Positions 22,014 to 35,822 of a stretch of DNA of 64,000 nt are shown piece by piece. Source of the DNA: Linderina pennispora (taxonomy: Eukaryota; Kickxellomycota; Kickxellomycetes; Kickxellales; Kickxellaceae). The notes under the pieces are model-generated. The model saw only the letters and a program-made list of their open reading frames with translations, ran no database searches and was not told where the DNA came from. The stretch is taken from NCBI RefSeq assembly GCF_002104995.1, contig NW_024468257.1, forward strand, positions 744,001 to 808,000. The letters are read 5' to 3'. Both the position numbers and the translations under genes were made by a program. Each line of letters opens with the position of its first letter. The first letter of the stretch is position 1.

Positions 22014-22538
22014 CCTACCCTGTGCCTAGTTGGGTTTTCACTATGACAGAGCTGGCTGTACTCAACTAATATATCGATATATGATGTTTTCGGGATGTGT
22101 TTATTAATAAACCACGCCAGATGTGAAGGTGGCTCTGGTCGAGTGGGCCGAGGAGATCCCTGTATTCTTATGTTGGCATGTAATACCTGCCACTGACTCT
22201 GAGCAGACTGGAAAACGCATCCTGTGAACCGCAGTCTTCTTCATTTGCCCACAATCCATGCCATTATCCTTGTTGTGTCTCGGGTACGATACACTTAGAT
22301 AGACAGCCTCCTGCAACTGTCTAGAATACGTTTACTCTCCAAGCACCTTTCCACGGCGTATACTGAACGTATGAAATATGCTGTATGAAAGAAGGAATAA
22401 GGAATCGCCAGGTGAAAGGGCAGGTGCCTGTCTAAGTAGTGGCGCCGGCCGCCCAGAATAGTATGGCCGGCCATTGTGGCCTAAAGGTCTTGATCTATGG
22501 GTTCCTAAAATCATAAGGATTTGGAACCACAAACACAT
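22014..22538. other. intergenic between orphan gene and left inverted-repeat arm
   Basis: Short GC-rich palindromic words (GGCCGGCC near 22473) but no gene. Confidence 0.45.
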
Positions 22539-24594
22539 TATACACTCAAGCTTATGCTTTATAGCATGAAGTTGATGACAAACAGGAACATAAGGGTCAT
22601 TTAGGAGCAGTCAATTCCATGCAGCTCACAAAAATATTTTGGTTTATGCCGAAGCAGAGGTGGAAGATGAAGAGGCTGATTTCTTCTTGGGGAATTTAAA
22701 TGGCTTGGTGCACGAGTTCCTGCCCTTAGCCGCCGTAAGGGTATAGTCGCTTGTGAGTTTTACATTGAAGTAGGTTCGCACTTCATTCAAAATCTCCTCA
22801 GTCCCATCCGCCGACTGGGTGCACGAGATCTCCACGTCGATATTGAGTTTGGTCTTGATTGCATCCTTGAAGTCTTTCGGATCGACAAGCGCCGTGTCGT
22901 CGGGTACAATCCCTTTGCTTGCCAGTGCAGGAATATAATTGTGTGCCTTGTGGAGCTTGATGGCGTTGGAGAAGTACTCGACAATGTCCTCGTTCTGGGT
23001 GTATGACTTGAAGCACTTTGGGTCAAGAGTTGTTGCACAAGTGCCATGCCTTGTCCACTCCTTCCCCCAGAATTCATCGTGCTTATTGTCGCTGGCCGGC
23101 CAGTAAATTAGCATGTCAGCTACCAGCTCAGGCTTTGCTGCCTGGAGAATTGACTTGACCTTCCTCTTCTTTCGAGAATTGTCACATCCAAAGGTCGGAG
23201 GGCTCTTTCCTTTGCAAGCACTCGGCCATAGGCCGTGCAGCGTGAACATGTCCGCGGGTCCAACATCCTTGTTCCACTGCTGCGTTAGCACATGGACGCC
23301 GTATTGCTCATAGCAACAGGTATCGGCCTTTTTTGCCAATGCCTCAGTCGAACAAGACAGTACATTTTGCGGGCACATGTCATGGGTAAGCTGGGTAGAC
23401 GTGGGTGCAGCACTGGTTGAGGTGGCGGAATTTGATGCAGTGGACTGGGAGGCGGTCGTCGAAGGGGCAGTTGACGCTGGTTTAGTCGGTGCGACTGACT
23501 TTGTCTTTGACTTTGACTTTGACTTTGAGCGGGCAGCCGTCTTCGATTTGGCCACAGGAGCAGAGACAGGAGTAGGCCTGTTTCTACCCGAGGATCCCTT
23601 AGAGCCGAACTTGGAGTTTAACTTGGAACCTGTCTTGGAGCCCGACGAAGCACCCAGAGCGATATCGGGGGAGGCAATAAGAACGGCACAGGCAATGAAA
23701 GTAATTGAAGCTAGACGCATTGTTTCGTGGGTGAAGTGGAATGAGGATGGTAGGGTAGTGTTGATGCAGAGTTTGGTGGAAAATGCAGGTATACACAAGA
23801 CTTGATGTTGATGATGATGTAGATTACCAAGACAACTGCTGGGGCCGACTCGCTTTTATATGAGATTGCTGTATACTTATGAAAAGAAATTTGCAATTGC
23901 CAGTTGCACATAATCATTCTCGATGTGACTAGCTGCTATCTATAGTAGATATCACTGCGATACCACAAAGATACTGGATTCTTTGTGGATAGTGATTTAC
24001 AAATCTACAATGTTATCAAAGCGATGGCTTCCAGGAAACTAGGATCTTCTCCCACGTACCTGCAATGCGCCCTTTGGGGGCTAGCGGTCGCTCTGTGAGG
24101 ATTCCTGAGTAGAAGCTTTAAAATTAGCCAGTGCATGCGGGCCAGCTGGTGAGTATCAACTAAAAATAGGAATGATGCTGCAGCATGTAGATCTCCAGGA
24201 AGCGAGATAGCTTTGCCATGATTCTGAGATACACCATTAATCCATTGATATTATTAGCATGGCGGCAGTAGCTAGAGGCAGATTATACAGATAGGTGTTG
24301 CGCTGACTGTAACGCATTCTTGAGTGAATTGGCCATCAATATTTGTAACTATTGATGACAGCTGTTGCCTTCTCCACATCAGCGGTGTAAGACTGTTGTG
24401 GTTGTTGAATGTGTGAGGATTTTAAAAGCTATATTAAATACTGAAGAAAAGAGAGAACAGGGAATAGACAAGTTGCGCAGGGGCGTTTTCAATACGGCCG
24501 TCTGTGCAACTTATCAGGGGCTAGACTCTGCCTCTATATTGTAGGCTGTAGCGGGGCTCTCGTTTGCGCCTGGCTTGCTGTCACCTGATTCGGC
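22539..24594 (-). repeat. inverted-repeat arm, left (2,056 bp)
   Basis: Reverse complement of 33677-35732 with equal length. By eye I found no differences over the RNase T2 gene and its upstream region; a few substitutions occur only in the last 70 or so bases at the 22539 end. The inner end (24594) falls inside the LTR at 24394-24636. The outer end shares only GAGTGTATA before the sequences part. Confidence 0.92.
22644..23720 (-). CDS. secreted RNase T2, left copy
   Basis: Identical protein to the copy at 34551-35627. 358 residues: signal peptide MRLASITFIACAVLIASPDI, a Ser/Thr/Lys-rich low-complexity stretch of about 85 residues (with SKSKSKSK), then the RNase T2 domain. Catalytic motifs are present: CAS I LHGLWP (His about residue 162) and CAS II FWGKEWTRHGTC (Glu and His about residues 222-225). 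Cysteines expected for the family disulphides are there (CCYEQYG, CDNS). T2 enzymes cleave single-stranded RNA with a 2',3'-cyclic intermediate and are secreted or vacuolar. The ATG at 23720 directly precedes the signal peptide; the ATG at 23798 would put 26 polar residues before it. TATAAAA at 23854-23860. Confidence 0.92.
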   Translation of the reverse strand: MRLASITFIACAVLIASPDIALGASSGSKTGSKLNSKFGSKGSSGRNRPTPVSAPVAKSKTAARSKSKSKSKTKSVAPTKPASTAPSTTASQSTASNSATSTSAAPTSTQLTHDMCPQNVLSCSTEALAKKADTCCYEQYGVHVLTQQWNKDVGPADMFTLHGLWPSACKGKSPPTFGCDNSRKKRKVKSILQAAKPELVADMLIYWPASDNKHDEFWGKEWTRHGTCATTLDPKCFKSYTQNEDIVEYFSNAIKLHKAHNYIPALASKGIVPDDTALVDPKDFKDAIKTKLNIDVEISCTQSADGTEEILNEVRTYFNVKLTSDYTLTAAKGRNSCTKPFKFPKKKSASSSSTSASA

Positions 24595-24636
24595 TGATAT
24601 GTCGACGTCAGGGAGAGCCGCAGCAGGTGCATAACA
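24394..24636 (-). repeat. solo LTR A (chimeric, no target duplication)
   Basis: 243 bp, minus orientation, starts TGTTATGC and ends CAACA. From 24594 down it matches LTR B (33635-33877) exactly by eye because it belongs to the inverted-repeat arm; its first 42 bases (24636-24595) differ from LTR B at many positions. Flanks are GGAT and GTCT, not a duplication. LTR B, in contrast, has GTCT on both sides. Confidence 0.78.
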
Positions 24637-26103
24637 ATCCGTCACCATGCCAAGCACTGATGCATATCACAGAGATAGTGCATATGTGGTGCCAGGTGCC
24701 TTTCTTCTGTCAGCACTCATCGTAGCCTACAAATTATACTTAAATAAGACGGTATGTGCCTATTACAACCCAGGTCGAATGTCGGAGAACACGCTACCTA
24801 GTTTCCTCTTCCCTTAGTGATGATTATAAACGTGCTGATAAAACCAAAAGTAGACGTTCACAAAAATATATTGGAAAACCCAGGAGGAATCCCCGCTGCT
24901 AGGAGCCAGCAAGGGGTATTTAAGCAAGCGCCGAGTGCGCATACTGAGCCCTCATCCAAGCCACGTACGGCCTGGATAAAGCTGCGCCACTCTCAGCGAG
25001 TAATACGTCTTGGGTGAGTCGGAACCACCCTTGTCAGAAGGTTACAAGCGATATAAATAAAATTATAGAGCGGGCTGGAACACCCGAAGATGGATATATT
25101 GGTTAAGATGTGAGAGAGTGCAGAAAGGCACTAAGCAAGTAGAAAAATATAGAAAGAAGACAAGAAGGATCCAGTCCAGTATTGGACTGGGTAGCAAAAT
25201 ATAAAGAGAAAATAGAACAATGAAATGAGGAAAATCTAATTCTGATAACCCTAGCAGCATGACATATAAACATCATATATTTATATGTGAGCATAAGCCT
25301 TATCTATTGTTGCAAGCAGGAGTGCATGATAAACGCTACACGCTACTTACTAACATAATATGCCATGTCTTTATTATAGAGGAACTACTCAGTACTTTTG
25401 AAAAACGGGACTGGCGCCCATACTAATTCGACCTTTTTGATGTTCGTGGCGTAACAATATCATAGAGCCTCATGTTGTACCACCAAAACACCGTATGCAT
25501 CTCTCTTCCACTTTCAGGTTTTGCTTTTTAGTTTTCTATCTTATGACAATTTCGACTTCTTTGGAACGGCGATTTTATGGAATAGAGTCATCGAGTGGTT
25601 TCATGGAGAATACACGCCAATGTTGACAGAAAGCCGCATGTTGTTTACTGACAAGCAGCAGGAAAATAGTTAGAAAAACGTTTTTCATACTCGTCAATAC
25701 AGTTTGTGCGCTAACATGCATAATCGAGAAGTTGCTATTAAATAGATGTCTCCGTGTATAAGCCTGATTAGCTGGTGGCCTGGTGATCAATTTCCTTCTT
25801 ATAAGAACCGCTGCTCGATCCCTATCAGCGACTCCTGGTCCGTTAGTGATTGCTTTAAGGTTTATTGAAGGAACGATTACTTCACAACCACGTAGTATAG
25901 CGTTACTGTCAGTTGGAACCTGGTACCACTGAGATTCTCTGTTTCTTATATTTTCTATCCCACACGAACGCAGCTACGGCTGATCTGGTTAGCTTTTTAT
26001 TTTTTTGTCTGTCTGCGAGAGCAAAAACTCATTTTTGGTGGTACAAAAAATATCCATCGAGGAGCAAGAGCCGTCCTGTGATACTAATCATGAAACGTCA
26101 TAC
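24637..26103. other. intergenic, no gene supported
   Basis: AT-rich DNA with short ORFs lacking family resemblance. Confidence 0.45.
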
Positions 26104-26346
26104 TGTTGCGCGCCCGATGCGGCTGTCCCTGACATCGACATGTCAGCCGAATCAGGTGACAGAAATCCAGGCGCCAACGAGAGCCCCGCTACAGCCTACG
26201 ATATGGAGGTAGAGTCTAGCCTCTGATAAGTTGCACAAATGGCAGTATTAAAAACTCCCCTGCGCAACTCGTCTATTCCCTTTTCTCTCTTTTCTTCAGT
26301 ATTAAATATACATTTAAAAACCCCTACATAGTCGACCGACACAACA
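26104..26346 (+). repeat. solo LTR C with 4-bp target duplication ATAC
   Basis: 243 bp, TGTTG...CAACA ends, same length as LTRs A and B and similar throughout. Flanked by ATAC on both sides (26100-26103 and 26347-26350). Its first 40 codons read as the C-terminal tail of a protein ending ATAYDMEVESSL-stop; the same tail is readable in A and B. Confidence 0.85.
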
Positions 26347-27225
26347 ATACCCCCTTTGTTGACACGAATTCACTAACTAGCTACTCGCCTGTGCGCTACG
26401 TATCGATGCGCATATAACAAGCTTCATTAGGCAGATAGGTTTTCGAATAGGCCAGCACATGCTTAGCCAACTTCAAAGACTGCAGCCATCTAGCAATATG
26501 ACACTGAGTATCGCATCACTAGTTGTAGTTGCTAACCTCAGACTACTAGCAAGTGCATCTACTGCTGAGGCTGGTCTTCGACATTCGTATGAAAGTAGGC
26601 ACGCAGCTGTCCTCTAGTAATATCAGCAAATTAGATTCCCTCTATAATTTGCATTCCTTAGGTCTCTATATATTCTGTGATCGGCCAAGCCACTGGACCG
26701 GTCTCTCTTAGCTTTTTTAATTTTCCCTTGCACGCTTTTTTAGTACTTACTGGGCTGCTGTCCACCTATATATTCCAATTCAGCTTGTTGAGTTTGACAA
26801 AAAAGAAGGGAAATTGAAATTTTGCTTACCTGGGGTTACAAGCATGAGACAAGACAGAGTGTAGCATCCAAGAACAATGGTAAGCATTCTACTTGCATTT
26901 GGCTTTGGATACTAGAACGGCAAGTCGCAATGGGTTTTTCTGACGGTATGCTGTTACACGCTAGTTTCAGTACTCAATCCAGCATTCCTTTTGTCCATGT
27001 TCATCGCCAGAAACATCACAAGGAGCTGTGGTTCCTGTGCGAGGCACGTGACAGAAAGATCATCCATTGGTCAGAAATTTATTCCTTTTTTACTGTTTTT
27101 GTATACTTTTGGATTGTTATGTTCATATCGATATTTATTGCTAGATTTTTAACTTAGAGATCCCAGCAATGGTGGGCACTGGCCTTGCTAGAACAGCAGA
27201 GGATGAACCCGTCGAGGCGGAATGA
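26347..27225. other. intergenic, no gene supported
   Basis: No recognisable gene. A 111-residue ORF at 26822-27157 has a hydrophobic end but no start context or family resemblance. Confidence 0.4.
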
Positions 27226-27305
27226 AGAGAAAAAAATGGGACAAATAATATACCATTCTTCGTTGATGCACTCAAATTTAGTCAATTGACAACCAAGTCG
27301 ACTGT
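27226..27305 (-). repeat. short coding-like inverted repeat, left copy
   Basis: About 75 bp, about 90% identical to the reverse complement of 35922-35997. In both copies one frame reads SRLGCQLTK(F/I)ECINEEWYI with synonymous changes among the differences, so it may be a relic of the same coding exon. Confidence 0.55.
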
Positions 27306-27504
27306 AAGGAGCAGCTTGCTCCTTCTCACCAACAGTAATACTAATTAAATAACAGGTCTGAAAATCATGTTGCAATAATGGCTGCAGGCTGAGAAAAAGT
27401 GTGAAAGGCAGCGCAATTCATATATGGGCATATGCGTGGGCCTCTTGAAATGGCTATAAAATTGACTAATGCTCTGAAGATAACGCGCTGCAGCGTTAGC
27501 TGGG

Positions 27505-28818
27505 CTAGTTCTTGACGACAACGAAATCAGAAAGCAGAATTTGCCCGTCACCGCTGACCTTGAATCCGTAATACTTCTGACGCCTGATACTCTCAACCTC
27601 GAATTGAGTCGATGTTGATCCAATACTTGAAAATGGGTGTCCTCGCTTACGTGTAGCGGCAATTGGCAGTTCCGCGAAGACGAATCGATTGAAGTATGTG
27701 CGAAGATCGCCTTCACGCTCTCTCTTATCACCCTTCTCGCTCACACGACATTTAAAGCCAAGGCTACGGAGAAGCCAGATGAAGTCCTTGAACAACTGGG
27801 TATGACCTTGCTTAGTCTGTGTCAATTCGAACTGTCCATCGTGGAAGCAACCATCTGCGTCGATCATGCCCGCGACAATGGCACAGCGTACAGAAGCTGG
27901 CTGATTGCGCAGTGCAAACGGCATGCGCTTATTATCATAGATATCAAGGGTGCGAAGAAGATCCATGAATGGGTTTGGGCGCATTGGACGATAACAACGA
28001 GTATCCTGTGACCGTTTGGCATCATATGCGGAAAATACGGCTATTGTGCAATTCTTGTTAGGGTGTTTATACTCCAAGAATGTCATCCCCATGTTTGCTG
28101 CCACGGCCCTGATTTTAGCCAAAATCTCGGTTTCCTTCATATGTACCGTAAAGTTCGGTGTCTTAGCCCAGCCATCACCAAGCCAGAATCCAATTGCCCA
28201 GGCAACCTCTTCTGGGCTAGCTGCACCAATTGAAAGGTCGATAGACGAGTCACCAAAAGCCATGCAACCGGCACGGTACATGCGCATTTGTTCGCGAATA
28301 TTCACCTTCCGATCACGATAACTGCCGACGGTTTCCTCGAATGTGTACGGGTTCGGATCAAGTGTTGCACGAAACTTAGCTGCGGTCCTTCCACATTTAA
28401 AAGTTTTGGCACGGGACCGTGGAACCCCATCCTCCCGCAAATACGAAAAAACGTAGTGAATTTTACGGATGCTATCCGATCTGAACGCTGAGACAGGGGT
28501 GTCTACACGCAGGCACAGCTGTTGTCCCCCTGTACAGGTAAACCCACCATCAACAGGCTTTGGCGCAATAAAAGGATTGTCCGTGTCGACGACGAATGAA
28601 TCACCACTATACGCGACCTTATACATCGGCCGGGTTCCTGACCAAATTGACTCCACAATGCGCTCAGTTCCATCGGGACCAAGCAGCGCCATGCCGACTT
28701 TTATGTCCTCGGCACGGACAACCTTGCCCTTTAGCGTCGCAAATGCGACATCAGGGCCGTATCCTTCGTTAAGGGTGGCAGGATGGGCAAAAAAGCTGGC
28801 AGTGATCTTGGTTTGCAT
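27505..28818 (-). CDS. free-standing intein-derived LAGLIDADG homing endonuclease (HO-like)
   Basis: 437 residues, one exon, ATG at 28818. The protein is a Hint (intein) module with an inserted two-motif LAGLIDADG endonuclease. Block A region about residues 22-50 (VAFATLKGKVVRAEDIKVGM), block B about 68-86 (VVDTDNPFIA), endonuclease motif 1 WAIGFWLGDG (about 207-216), the NKRMP segment near 297, motif 2 AIVAGMIDADG (about 313-323), then blocks F/G YYGFKVSGDGQIL and FVVVKN at the C terminus. Both motif aspartates are kept. Splicing residues are not: the Cys1 position appears to be Ala, the block B His is Asn, the penultimate His is Lys, and a stop codon follows the terminal Asn directly so there is no C-extein. 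By analogy with yeast VDE and HO it should cut a specific DNA site. No zinc-finger tail like that of HO. Confidence 0.88.
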   Translation of the reverse strand: MQTKITASFFAHPATLNEGYGPDVAFATLKGKVVRAEDIKVGMALLGPDGTERIVESIWSGTRPMYKVAYSGDSFVVDTDNPFIAPKPVDGGFTCTGGQQLCLRVDTPVSAFRSDSIRKIHYVFSYLREDGVPRSRAKTFKCGRTAAKFRATLDPNPYTFEETVGSYRDRKVNIREQMRMYRAGCMAFGDSSIDLSIGAASPEEVAWAIGFWLGDGWAKTPNFTVHMKETEILAKIRAVAANMGMTFLEYKHPNKNCTIAVFSAYDAKRSQDTRCYRPMRPNPFMDLLRTLDIYDNKRMPFALRNQPASVRCAIVAGMIDADGCFHDGQFELTQTKQGHTQLFKDFIWLLRSLGFKCRVSEKGDKREREGDLRTYFNRFVFAELPIAATRKRGHPFSSIGSTSTQFEVESIRRQKYYGFKVSGDGQILLSDFVVVKN

Positions 28819-29633
28819 TTTGTAACTATCTGCGGCTTGGCTGGTATAAAAAGTTTGAAGTAGAGCGTTTACAGGCTATGTGATTTGGAAAAATGACTTT
28901 GGAATATATCCTGAGGAGAAAAGGTGTGGGTTGGCCGTTCTGGGCTATATATATGTATATATGTACGCATGTGTTTTGGCTTATTTACGGTGTGTTGCTT
29001 TTTGCCAAGACCGAAGACAATGCCAAGGATAGTATTTACTTTTGTTTACATTTACCAAAGCAGTATATGGAACTGTCATTTAGATGCAATGCTTGCAGAC
29101 TAGAGTCCTGCTATGCACGTAGCTTCTGCCAAGACACTAGCCTGCGAACTGCAGAGAATGCTATTTAGTTCAGTAAATAGAAACGAAATTGAGAAACTGC
29201 TAGTGGATCGTTGCGTACCTATTACTATACTGATGCCAGAGCGCAACCTCTGTAGTGAATGTAACTATAATACCTTGCGTATGAAATATCAAGCAGATAA
29301 CCTCTTGTGACTGTCGTATTATATTTACTCATTAGTGCAACTTTCATAAGATATTGTTAAATGCATGAAAATACGTTATTTACAAATATAGAAGACGAAT
29401 CTGAAAGCAAGGAGAAAGTACCTGTTTATATAAATAGTATGCGGTGCATGAAAGCAAGGGAGACTACTGCAACCCAGAGATGGATGGCATGTGTTCCTGG
29501 CATCTTATTGCCTGTTAATTTGAGGACGATAGTAGATTCTAATAATCTGTGAATAGCAATTGCAAATTGTGAGGTGATGTTGCAAGTATCACAAGCTCCT
29601 CCTCTGGCCCTACTTACCTTTACAAACTCCAAA
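28819..29633. other. intergenic, no gene supported
   Basis: A TATATATGTATATATG run at about 28950. Otherwise AT-rich with no gene except a possible 3' exon of the next minus-strand gene near 29590-29600. Confidence 0.45.
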
Positions 29634-33559: not shown

Positions 33560-33634
33560 GATGTAAGACCAGATGGAGGTGTAATGCTCAGGTGCAATGC
33601 TCAGGTGCAATTGCAAGGCTTTACAGTATTGTCT

Positions 33635-33877
33635 TGTTGCGCGCCCGGTGCGGCTGTCCCTGACGTCGACATGTCTGCCGAATCAGGTGACAGCAAGCCA
33701 GGCGCAAACGAGAGCCCCGCTACAGCCTACAATATAGAGGCAGAGTCTAGCCCCTGATAAGTTGCACAGACGGCCGTATTGAAAACGCCCCTGCGCAACT
33801 TGTCTATTCCCTGTTCTCTCTTTTCTTCAGTATTTAATATAGCTTTTAAAATCCTCACACATTCAACAACCACAACA
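33635..33877 (+). repeat. solo LTR B with 4-bp target duplication GTCT
   Basis: 243 bp, TGTTG...CAACA, flanked by GTCT at 33631-33634 and 33878-33881. The right inverted-repeat arm begins inside it at 33677. First 40 codons read as a Pol-like C-terminal tail ending NIEAESSP-stop; a hairpin AAGTTGCACAG / CTGCGCAACTT follows the stop. Confidence 0.88.
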
Positions 33878-34282
33878 GTCTTACACCGCTGATGTGGAGA
33901 AGGCAACAGCTGTCATCAATAGTTACAAATATTGATGGCCAATTCACTCAAGAATGCGTTACAGTCAGCGCAACACCTATCTGTATAATCTGCCTCTAGC
34001 TACTGCCGCCATGCTAATAATATCAATGGATTAATGGTGTATCTCAGAATCATGGCAAAGCTATCTCGCTTCCTGGAGATCTACATGCTGCAGCATCATT
34101 CCTATTTTTAGTTGATACTCACCAGCTGGCCCGCATGCACTGGCTAATTTTAAAGCTTCTACTCAGGAATCCTCACAGAGCGACCGCTAGCCCCCAAAGG
34201 GCGCATTGCAGGTACGTGGGAGAAGATCCTAGTTTCCTGGAAGCCATCGCTTTGATAACATTGTAGATTTGTAAATCACTAT

Positions 34283-34308
34283 CCACAAAGAATCCAGTAT
34301 CTTTGTGG
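34283..34308. repeat. small inverted repeat in RNase T2 upstream region (also in left arm)
   Basis: CCACAAAGA and TCTTTGTGG separated by eight bases, about 250 bases upstream of the RNase T2 start in both copies. Could be a regulator's operator; no factor can be named. Confidence 0.4.
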
Positions 34309-34410
34309 TATCGCAGTGATATCTACTATAGATAGCAGCTAGTCACATCGAGAATGATTATGTGCAACTGGCAATTGCAAATTTCTTTTCATAAGTATAC
34401 AGCAATCTCA

Positions 34411-34417
34411 TATAAAA
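34411..34417 (+). promoter_or_regulatory. TATA box of RNase T2, right copy
   Basis: TATAAAA 134 bases before the ATG at 34551; the mirror copy is at 23854-23860. Confidence 0.55.
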
Positions 34418-34550
34418 GCGAGTCGGCCCCAGCAGTTGTCTTGGTAATCTACATCATCATCAACATCAAGTCTTGTGTATACCTGCATTTTCCACCAAAC
34501 TCTGCATCAACACTACCCTACCATCCTCATTCCACTTCACCCACGAAACA

Positions 34551-35627
34551 ATGCGTCTAGCTTCAATTACTTTCATTGCCTGTGCCGTTCTTATTGCCTC
34601 CCCCGATATCGCTCTGGGTGCTTCGTCGGGCTCCAAGACAGGTTCCAAGTTAAACTCCAAGTTCGGCTCTAAGGGATCCTCGGGTAGAAACAGGCCTACT
34701 CCTGTCTCTGCTCCTGTGGCCAAATCGAAGACGGCTGCCCGCTCAAAGTCAAAGTCAAAGTCAAAGACAAAGTCAGTCGCACCGACTAAACCAGCGTCAA
34801 CTGCCCCTTCGACGACCGCCTCCCAGTCCACTGCATCAAATTCCGCCACCTCAACCAGTGCTGCACCCACGTCTACCCAGCTTACCCATGACATGTGCCC
34901 GCAAAATGTACTGTCTTGTTCGACTGAGGCATTGGCAAAAAAGGCCGATACCTGTTGCTATGAGCAATACGGCGTCCATGTGCTAACGCAGCAGTGGAAC
35001 AAGGATGTTGGACCCGCGGACATGTTCACGCTGCACGGCCTATGGCCGAGTGCTTGCAAAGGAAAGAGCCCTCCGACCTTTGGATGTGACAATTCTCGAA
35101 AGAAGAGGAAGGTCAAGTCAATTCTCCAGGCAGCAAAGCCTGAGCTGGTAGCTGACATGCTAATTTACTGGCCGGCCAGCGACAATAAGCACGATGAATT
35201 CTGGGGGAAGGAGTGGACAAGGCATGGCACTTGTGCAACAACTCTTGACCCAAAGTGCTTCAAGTCATACACCCAGAACGAGGACATTGTCGAGTACTTC
35301 TCCAACGCCATCAAGCTCCACAAGGCACACAATTATATTCCTGCACTGGCAAGCAAAGGGATTGTACCCGACGACACGGCGCTTGTCGATCCGAAAGACT
35401 TCAAGGATGCAATCAAGACCAAACTCAATATCGACGTGGAGATCTCGTGCACCCAGTCGGCGGATGGGACTGAGGAGATTTTGAATGAAGTGCGAACCTA
35501 CTTCAATGTAAAACTCACAAGCGACTATACCCTTACGGCGGCTAAGGGCAGGAACTCGTGCACCAAGCCATTTAAATTCCCCAAGAAGAAATCAGCCTCT
35601 TCATCTTCCACCTCTGCTTCGGCATAA
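34551..35627 (+). CDS. secreted RNase T2, right copy (probable donor copy)
   Basis: Same 358-residue product as 22644-23720: signal peptide, Ser/Thr/Lys-rich segment, T2 domain with LHGLWP and FWGKEWTRHGTC. The two coding regions translate identically. The right copy keeps an intact upstream LTR with its target duplication, so it is probably the original and the left one the duplicate. Start at 34551 because it opens the signal peptide; the ATG at 34473 is in the leader. The added K/S-rich stretch is unusual for T2 enzymes and may hold the enzyme at the wall or to RNA. Confidence 0.92.
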   Translation: MRLASITFIACAVLIASPDIALGASSGSKTGSKLNSKFGSKGSSGRNRPTPVSAPVAKSKTAARSKSKSKSKTKSVAPTKPASTAPSTTASQSTASNSATSTSAAPTSTQLTHDMCPQNVLSCSTEALAKKADTCCYEQYGVHVLTQQWNKDVGPADMFTLHGLWPSACKGKSPPTFGCDNSRKKRKVKSILQAAKPELVADMLIYWPASDNKHDEFWGKEWTRHGTCATTLDPKCFKSYTQNEDIVEYFSNAIKLHKAHNYIPALASKGIVPDDTALVDPKDFKDAIKTKLNIDVEISCTQSADGTEEILNEVRTYFNVKLTSDYTLTAAKGRNSCTKPFKFPKKKSASSSSTSASA

Positions 35628-35733
35628 ACCAAAATATTTTTGTGAGCTGCATGGAATTGACTGCTCCTGAATGTCTCTTATGTTCCTGTTTGTCATCAAC
35701 TTCATGCTATCAAGCATAAGCTTGAGTGTATAG

Positions 35734-35822
35734 TGGAGGTTATTCACAATTACTAAACTAGGTAAAAGATATTTAGAACTTTTAAAACTTTTACCTAGTT
35801 TAGTAACTGTGAATGACCTCCA
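35734..35822. repeat. 89-bp near-perfect palindrome next to the right arm
   Basis: TGGAGGT...ACCTCCA ends; 35-base stems with two mismatches around a 19-base centre containing ATTTAGAACTTTTAAAA. Begins two bases after the end of homology between the arms. Not present beside the left arm. Confidence 0.85.

Follow-up and report, generated by a model that had tools for sequence, protein, structure and literature searches.

A free-standing LAGLIDADG endonuclease gene of Linderina pennispora, probably escaped from an EF-Tu intein

To our knowledge, the best-described inteins turned into stand-alone endonucleases are HO, the mating-type switching enzyme of baker's yeast, and WHO. Both are traced to VDE, end in a C-terminal zinc finger and are without motif G, WHO adjoins FBA1 fragments, and the two are termed the only known intein-zinc finger fusions (PMC7282813). 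We have analyzed a window (the whole stretch under analysis, 64,000 nucleotides, positions 744,001 to 808,000 of contig NW_024468257.1, assembly GCF_002104995.1) of the genome of Linderina pennispora (Kickxellomycotina), and found on its minus strand an open reading frame (ORF, 27505..28818) that is a complete free-standing, intein-shaped LAGLIDADG endonuclease gene. As in HO and WHO, the product would be a stand-alone LAGLIDADG protein of Hint shape, without exteins and apparently without splicing. It differs from them in its EF-Tu intein ancestry, which is not that of VMA1/VDE, in having no zinc finger, in keeping blocks F and G as sequence up to Asn437 and, from WHO, in that no target-gene fragment was found beside it (40 of 174 candidates scored). 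An earlier description made from the DNA letters (the sequence-only reading) had equated this with exactly the change that produced HO, an equation that fails on the VDE origin and the zinc fingers of HO and WHO (PMC7282813). The best explanation, which we hold to be probable, is a homing-endonuclease gene (HEG) that escaped from an EF-Tu intein in the Linderina lineage, likely dispensable and with its target shifted.

Splicing residues lost and endonuclease residues kept

Intein splicing depends on a Cys or Ser at position 1, the His of block B, a penultimate His together with Asn, and a nucleophile at position +1. The corresponding positions of the gene, and those of its endonuclease, are as follows.

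27505..28818, minus strand: intein-derived LAGLIDADG endonuclease gene, 437 amino acids plus stop (TAG, 27505-27507)
28765..28818, minus strand: N-terminal extension, 18 residues preceding the old Cys1 position (MQTKITASFFAHPATLNE), with low model confidence
28762..28764, minus strand: Gly19, replacing the catalytic Cys1 (Cys in 34/34 inteins, and by structural alignment)
28576..28605, minus strand: GDSFVVDTDN stretch between blocks A and B
28507..28542, minus strand: block B, FTCTGGQQLCLR, with Thr94 retained
28522-28524, minus strand: Gln99, replacing the block-B His (His in 34/34 inteins)
28171..28203, minus strand: LAGLIDADG motif 1, AWAIGFWLGDG, with the catalytic-type Asp215 at 28174-28176
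27928..27930, minus strand: Lys297, aligned to PI-SceI Lys301
27850..27879, minus strand: LAGLIDADG motif 2, IVAGMIDADG, with the catalytic-type Asp322 at 27853-27855
27646..27648, minus strand: Lys391, in a Lys-Arg pair aligned to PI-SceI Lys402-Lys403
27508..27576, minus strand: blocks F and G, KYYGFKVSGDGQILLSDFVVVKN, with Ser422, Lys436 and Asn437, then the stop

Seventy-one columns were conserved in at least 94% of 34 inteins; the free protein retains 59 of them and has changed 12. The Cys1, block-B His and block-F Asp, each found in 34/34 inteins, are replaced by Gly19, Gln99 and Ser422, the penultimate His (33/34) by Lys436, and a stop codon stands directly after Asn437 at the Cys+1 position, leaving Thr94 and Asn437 as the only splicing residues. 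The changes affected 4 of the 6 splicing-chemistry columns (picked on the basis of general intein chemistry) versus 8 of the 65 others (Fisher p 0.006). With Cys+1 and the four residues replaced by Gly19, Gln99, Ser422 and Lys436 all lost, the protein should be unable to splice; of what defines a functional intein, neither an in-frame insertion in a host nor the set of splicing residues was found.

Asp215, Asp322, Lys297 and Lys391 are present in this protein and in a second free-standing one of L. pennispora (P0001, see below), and we take PI-SceI Lys301 and Lys403, to which Lys297 and the Lys391 pair align, to have roles in the active site. Both endonuclease aspartates occur in just 8 of the 34 inteins (5/22 from EF-Tu, 3/12 from eIF2-gamma), and one or both are missing in 17/22 of the EF-Tu inteins. 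Judged by these residues, most EF-Tu inteins retain splicing and have shed the endonuclease, and the free gene is the reverse.

The predicted structure of the free protein has a confident fold. PI-SceI was the nearest solved fold across the whole length, with the active-site aspartates aligned, and I-DmoI was matched too in the endonuclease part; the structural matches ranked under PI-SceI were chiefly other inteins and LAGLIDADG enzymes, a list in which the absence of a family excludes no family. PI-SceI (VDE) differs from the free protein in its VMA1 host, in splicing and in its sequence (about 20% identity in the structural alignment). With two motifs bearing catalytic-type aspartates and, in the predicted model, the correct fold, the protein would belong to the LAGLIDADG homing endonuclease class. 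A Pfam scan of the 437 amino acids gave Hint and endonuclease domains only, with neither a fused DNA-binding domain nor a C-terminal zinc finger by Pfam, and the protein terminates at the block G Asn437. In-frame stops flank the ORF at either side. The N-terminal extension, in which 17/18 residues are identical in P0001, contains no detectable remnant of an EF-Tu extein.

The sequence-only reading had described an intein freed from its host, with splicing residues lost and endonuclease motifs retained, a stop after the last Asn and no zinc-finger tail. All of this was borne out: the ORF stands alone, four residues and Cys+1 are gone while Asp215 and Asp322 are present, and no host exons were detected beside the gene, exons spliced to it on both sides being what that reading had named as contrary evidence. 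Its individual residue calls were partly right, the change of the penultimate His to Lys being correct (Lys436), but Cys1 is replaced by Gly19 and not Ala, and the block-B His by Gln99 and not Asn.

Kinship with EF-Tu inteins

Searching some 5.8 billion proteins for homologues of the free protein gave 21 matches. The top match is P0001, which L. pennispora encodes as a free-standing hypothetical protein (91% identity over 351 columns). Matches 2-5, from Linderina and Coemansia, are EF-Tu or EF-Tu-like, with the intein between D and C of HVD/CPGH, and the remaining 16 (P0006-P0021), which were kept out of the trees, are distant (21-28% identity), some of them from metagenomes. With the Linderina EF-Tu intein as query, a further search gave at least 42 matches (7,997 candidates scored), of which at least 26 were EF-Tu and at least 14 eIF2-gamma, together with P0001 and one helicase-like protein; some eIF2-gamma rows were assigned from their CPGHDIL flank. 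Out of 40 inteins found, 34 entered the trees and counts; P0030, P0038, P0040, P0045, P0048 and P0053 were excluded as cut short, with the end motif missing or with the start pattern unmatched. This EF-Tu/eIF2-gamma intein family comprises rows P0002-P0005 and P0022-P0057, with EF-Tu hosts in Kickxellales; Porphyridium, among the eIF2-gamma hosts, is a red alga.

The inteins of Kickxellales EF-Tu (Linderina P0002, Kickxella P0022, Coemansia P0023) are of the same family and block layout as the free gene, but they lie in frame at HVD/CPGH, keep the splicing residues and mostly lack endonuclease aspartates, as said above. Those of eIF2-gamma (Geotrichum, Blastocladiella, Porphyridium and others) share the CPGH insertion point with the EF-Tu inteins, in a related GTPase, and differ from the free gene in being in frame in eIF2-gamma and having the splicing residues present. 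In a tree of 51 rows both free proteins clustered with the 22 EF-Tu inteins (95/97), the 12 eIF2-gamma inteins formed the sister group (95/82) and 13 VMA inteins (11 selected from 120 listed plus two from this genome) were set apart as their own clade (100/99); HO and WHO themselves were outside the tree. A second tree was made additionally without P0031 and without all VMA and PRP8 rows.

A mark independent of the tree, and apparently clearer on this kinship, is a stretch between blocks A and B that is common to the Linderina EF-Tu intein (GDQYLVDADN) and the free proteins (GDSFVVDTDN). It is missing from 33/33 other aligned inteins, and of 178 fetched proteins only two, P0001 and P0002, contained it as a pattern. 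Because the stretch is shared with the Linderina EF-Tu intein alone, the most likely source of the gene is an EF-Tu intein inside the Linderina lineage. On this comparison of sequences the likely parent is an intein of the nuclear-encoded mitochondrial EF-Tu and not the VMA intein behind HO and WHO. The free protein is now 44-45% identical to the Linderina EF-Tu intein P0002 (44% in the endonuclease domain).

The proposal of an origin independent of HO, in a lineage remote from budding yeast, agrees with this grouping and with the separate VMA clade. A placement among prokaryotic contamination, which would have spoken against the sequence-only reading, found no support either: scans with two peptide patterns each gave 54 matches in prokaryotic contigs and 29 in viral contigs, with no close relative confirmed among them, and the 16 distant matches stand outside the tree.

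P0001, known from its protein only, has 381 amino acids and lacks 56 residues of the window protein. A matching GT and AG lie 168 nt apart in the window gene, and excising the stretch between them yields exactly 381 amino acids with an identical joint. Since the removed stretch, a multiple of three, contains the conserved block B, the model intron of P0001 looks like an annotation artefact; a real intron or a deletion would also fit. Compared over 363 residues, the two free copies differ at 34, 23 of them in the endonuclease part.

The locus, its second copy and the intein-free hosts

The gene lies in a segment that is present in one of two copies of the region.

24639..29284, no strand: segment holding the gene, 4,646 bp, absent from contig C55 of the same assembly, with AAT at the junction

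The first 20 kb of C55 were compared, and they are collinear with window positions 18938-43760 at about 96-98%, with minor differences near the outer ends of an inverted repeat. C55 is probably the other haplotype, since other genes (EF-Tu, VMA1) likewise occur on near-identical contig pairs. The rest of the 4.6-kb block has only dispersed repeats elsewhere in the genome (40/174 candidates scored).

Both EF-Tu copies of this genome (C1, C162) are free of inteins, and so is the eIF2-gamma gene (C179). At the DNA and protein level, the similarity of the N- and C-flanks of the free gene to the EF-Tu exteins scored no better than shuffles, and in fixed register 5/30 bases after the stop were identical to the EF-Tu extein. 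No match to an EF-Tu exon was found near the gene; one translated EF-Tu protein alignment extends three residues beyond Asn437 across the TAG, which we read as chance. The C55 junction was also compared with the insertion site in EF-Tu. The best match was 12/16 bases on one strand (reached by 5/100 shuffles) and 9/16 on the other (reached by 100/100), and neither is counted as evidence.

Four neighbouring ORFs were scanned and correspond to an RNase T2, a 2-oxoglutarate (2OG) oxygenase and two proteins without Pfam match, with no sign of a mating-type locus among the four. The inverted repeat, of 2.1 kb (window 22536-24637 and 33634-35735, arms 99.4% identical), occurs in the window and on C55 alike and has the RNase T2 ORF in its left arm, at whose inner end the 4.6-kb gene block begins. 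Short dispersed repeats of about 243 bp (24394-24636, 26104-26346 and 33635-33877) have many copies in the genome, and the one at 26104-26346 ends in TGTTG...CAACA and resembles a miniature inverted-repeat transposable element. A second dispersed family, of about 350 bp (24682-25032), also has many genome copies.

The genome contains other inteins. VMA1 occurs twice, at C157 (L025/L002) and C149 (L021), with exteins identical at 578/580 residues. The two VMA1 inteins are only 48% identical, one having 459 amino acids with GDG and SDG motifs and the other 389 with the motifs altered. The C157 intein shares 86% identity with its counterpart in Coemansia sp. IMI 209128 (P0059), close for a different genus, and may be a recent transfer. 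PRP8 (L024, C1:2371500-2379500) has two inteins in one gene, and the eIF5B gene (L020, C46:376500-385000) has an intein spread across two reading frames.

Rate of change, rival explanations and significance

With Kickxella as the outgroup, 95 changes fell on the free side versus 26 on the side of the Linderina intein (p 2e-10). The excess appeared in every domain and was strongest in the C-terminal Hint part (14 changes versus 2). With three further outgroups the counts were 92 vs 31, 95 vs 33 and 61 vs 33 (p 3e-8 to 0.005). A neutral simulation was used in place of dN/dS. Drift to 40% or 55% amino-acid difference left 0/150 runs stop-free in each case, with a mean of 8 to 11 stops, and because of this the reading frame was maintained over most of the free branch, part of which may correspond to time as an intein.

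We propose that the gene has a start of its own and gives one protein, in which the Hint fold would be retained as a scaffold after the loss of splicing. The LAGLIDADG domain retains its two motifs, both aspartates and two lysines, and so this non-splicing enzyme most likely still cuts both DNA strands at one long site by LAGLIDADG chemistry. Its specificity has probably shifted from the ancestral EF-Tu site, or the enzyme is rarely made, since the intein-free EF-Tu and eIF2-gamma genes offer the ancestral site uncut. The presence of the gene in one of the two region copies of one assembly suggests that the HEG is most likely selfish and dispensable and has not become a fixed host gene. A second independent birth of a free homing element, from the EF-Tu intein, with a new target gained without a zinc finger and the gene now spreading as a selfish element, goes further and can be put forward only tentatively.

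Several observations weigh against the escape of a selfish HEG from an EF-Tu intein of Linderina. The sister placement with the Linderina EF-Tu intein was weak (86/62 in the first tree, 84/43 in the second), and neither the grouping of all EF-Tu inteins together nor that of the free pair with eIF2-gamma was rejected (p-AU 0.387 and 0.379), which leaves the exact position of the free gene unfixed by the trees alone. The difference from C55 fits an insertion here or a deletion there equally well and does not by itself imply mobility, and the two contigs are taken as haplotypes from their identity. No clean insert of HEG size was found in the C55 comparison, nor did the own-genome DNA search give a duplicated target gene of the WHO kind for the block (again with 40/174 candidates scored; diverged fragments could be missed). 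The acceleration is equally compatible with relaxed constraint and with a new target. Finally, neutral drift to 9%, the divergence of the free copies, left 43/300 runs open, and therefore recent selection between these copies is not significant.

These last two points would also suit a dying relic, i.e., an escaped intein decaying towards an inactive pseudogene, as would the presence/absence polymorphism. We consider this rather unlikely, since 437 codons remain open where neutral drift to 40-55% difference would have left several stops, 59/71 conserved columns and a confident fold are kept, and all four endonuclease residues are found in both copies. The intact ORF with its active-site residues, the occurrence of the gene in a second record of L. 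pennispora and its faster evolution than the parent intein could be expected of a domesticated endonuclease with a programmed DNA-cutting job for the fungus, like yeast HO. That explanation is less likely still, because the gene is absent from the near-identical second region copy, the four neighbouring ORFs lack any sign of a mating-type locus and Pfam gives no fused DNA-binding domain. Of the HO-like gene suggested by the sequence-only reading, the stand-alone origin can thus be kept, whereas service to the host is unproven.

The free enzyme could also act in trans as a helper that cuts the intein-free EF-Tu site and so mobilises EF-Tu inteins with a dead endonuclease; 17 of the 22 EF-Tu inteins persist without one or both aspartates, and an EF-Tu intein is present in an L. 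pennispora record. That intein, however, has its own active site intact, the endonuclease domain of the free protein is just 44% identical to that of the intein, and both contigs with EF-Tu in this genome have it without an intein, open to cutting by the free gene's enzyme, making a helper quite improbable. That the ORF is an intein which introns still connect to host exons is hardly credible: the intron-containing gene model of the second record and the EF-Tu alignment that crosses the TAG by three residues would fit this, but the 168-nt model intron, a multiple of three with its GT/AG matched here, deletes block B, the flanks resemble the exteins no better than shuffles (5/30 bases after the stop), no EF-Tu exon matches nearby and the splicing residues are lost.

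An HEG escaped from an EF-Tu intein would be a new case, from a different intein and a different fungal subphylum. It has no zinc finger, and its likely parent intein is present in a record of the same species. We found no report of an EF-Tu or eIF2-gamma intein, or of an intein-derived free gene beyond HO and WHO, in the titles and abstract starts of the mainly open-licence literature searched. The 2018 catalogue of eukaryotic inteins gives as nuclear hosts Prp8, VMA1, RNA polymerase subunits, ThrRS, GLT, CHS and eIF5B (PMC5784728), and the terms 'EF-Tu', 'elongation factor', 'eIF2', 'Linderina' and 'Coemansia' are absent from its main text; under these terms, EF-Tu and eIF2-gamma are intein hosts outside the main text of that catalogue (PMC5784728). 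The case lets one ask which steps are required, i.e., splicing lost, endonuclease kept and target changed, and the reverse decay of the EF-Tu inteins, with splicing kept and endonuclease lost, provides a natural comparison. If true, the path taken by HO and WHO would be repeatable, and the records of a single living fungal species would include both the escaped gene and its parent.
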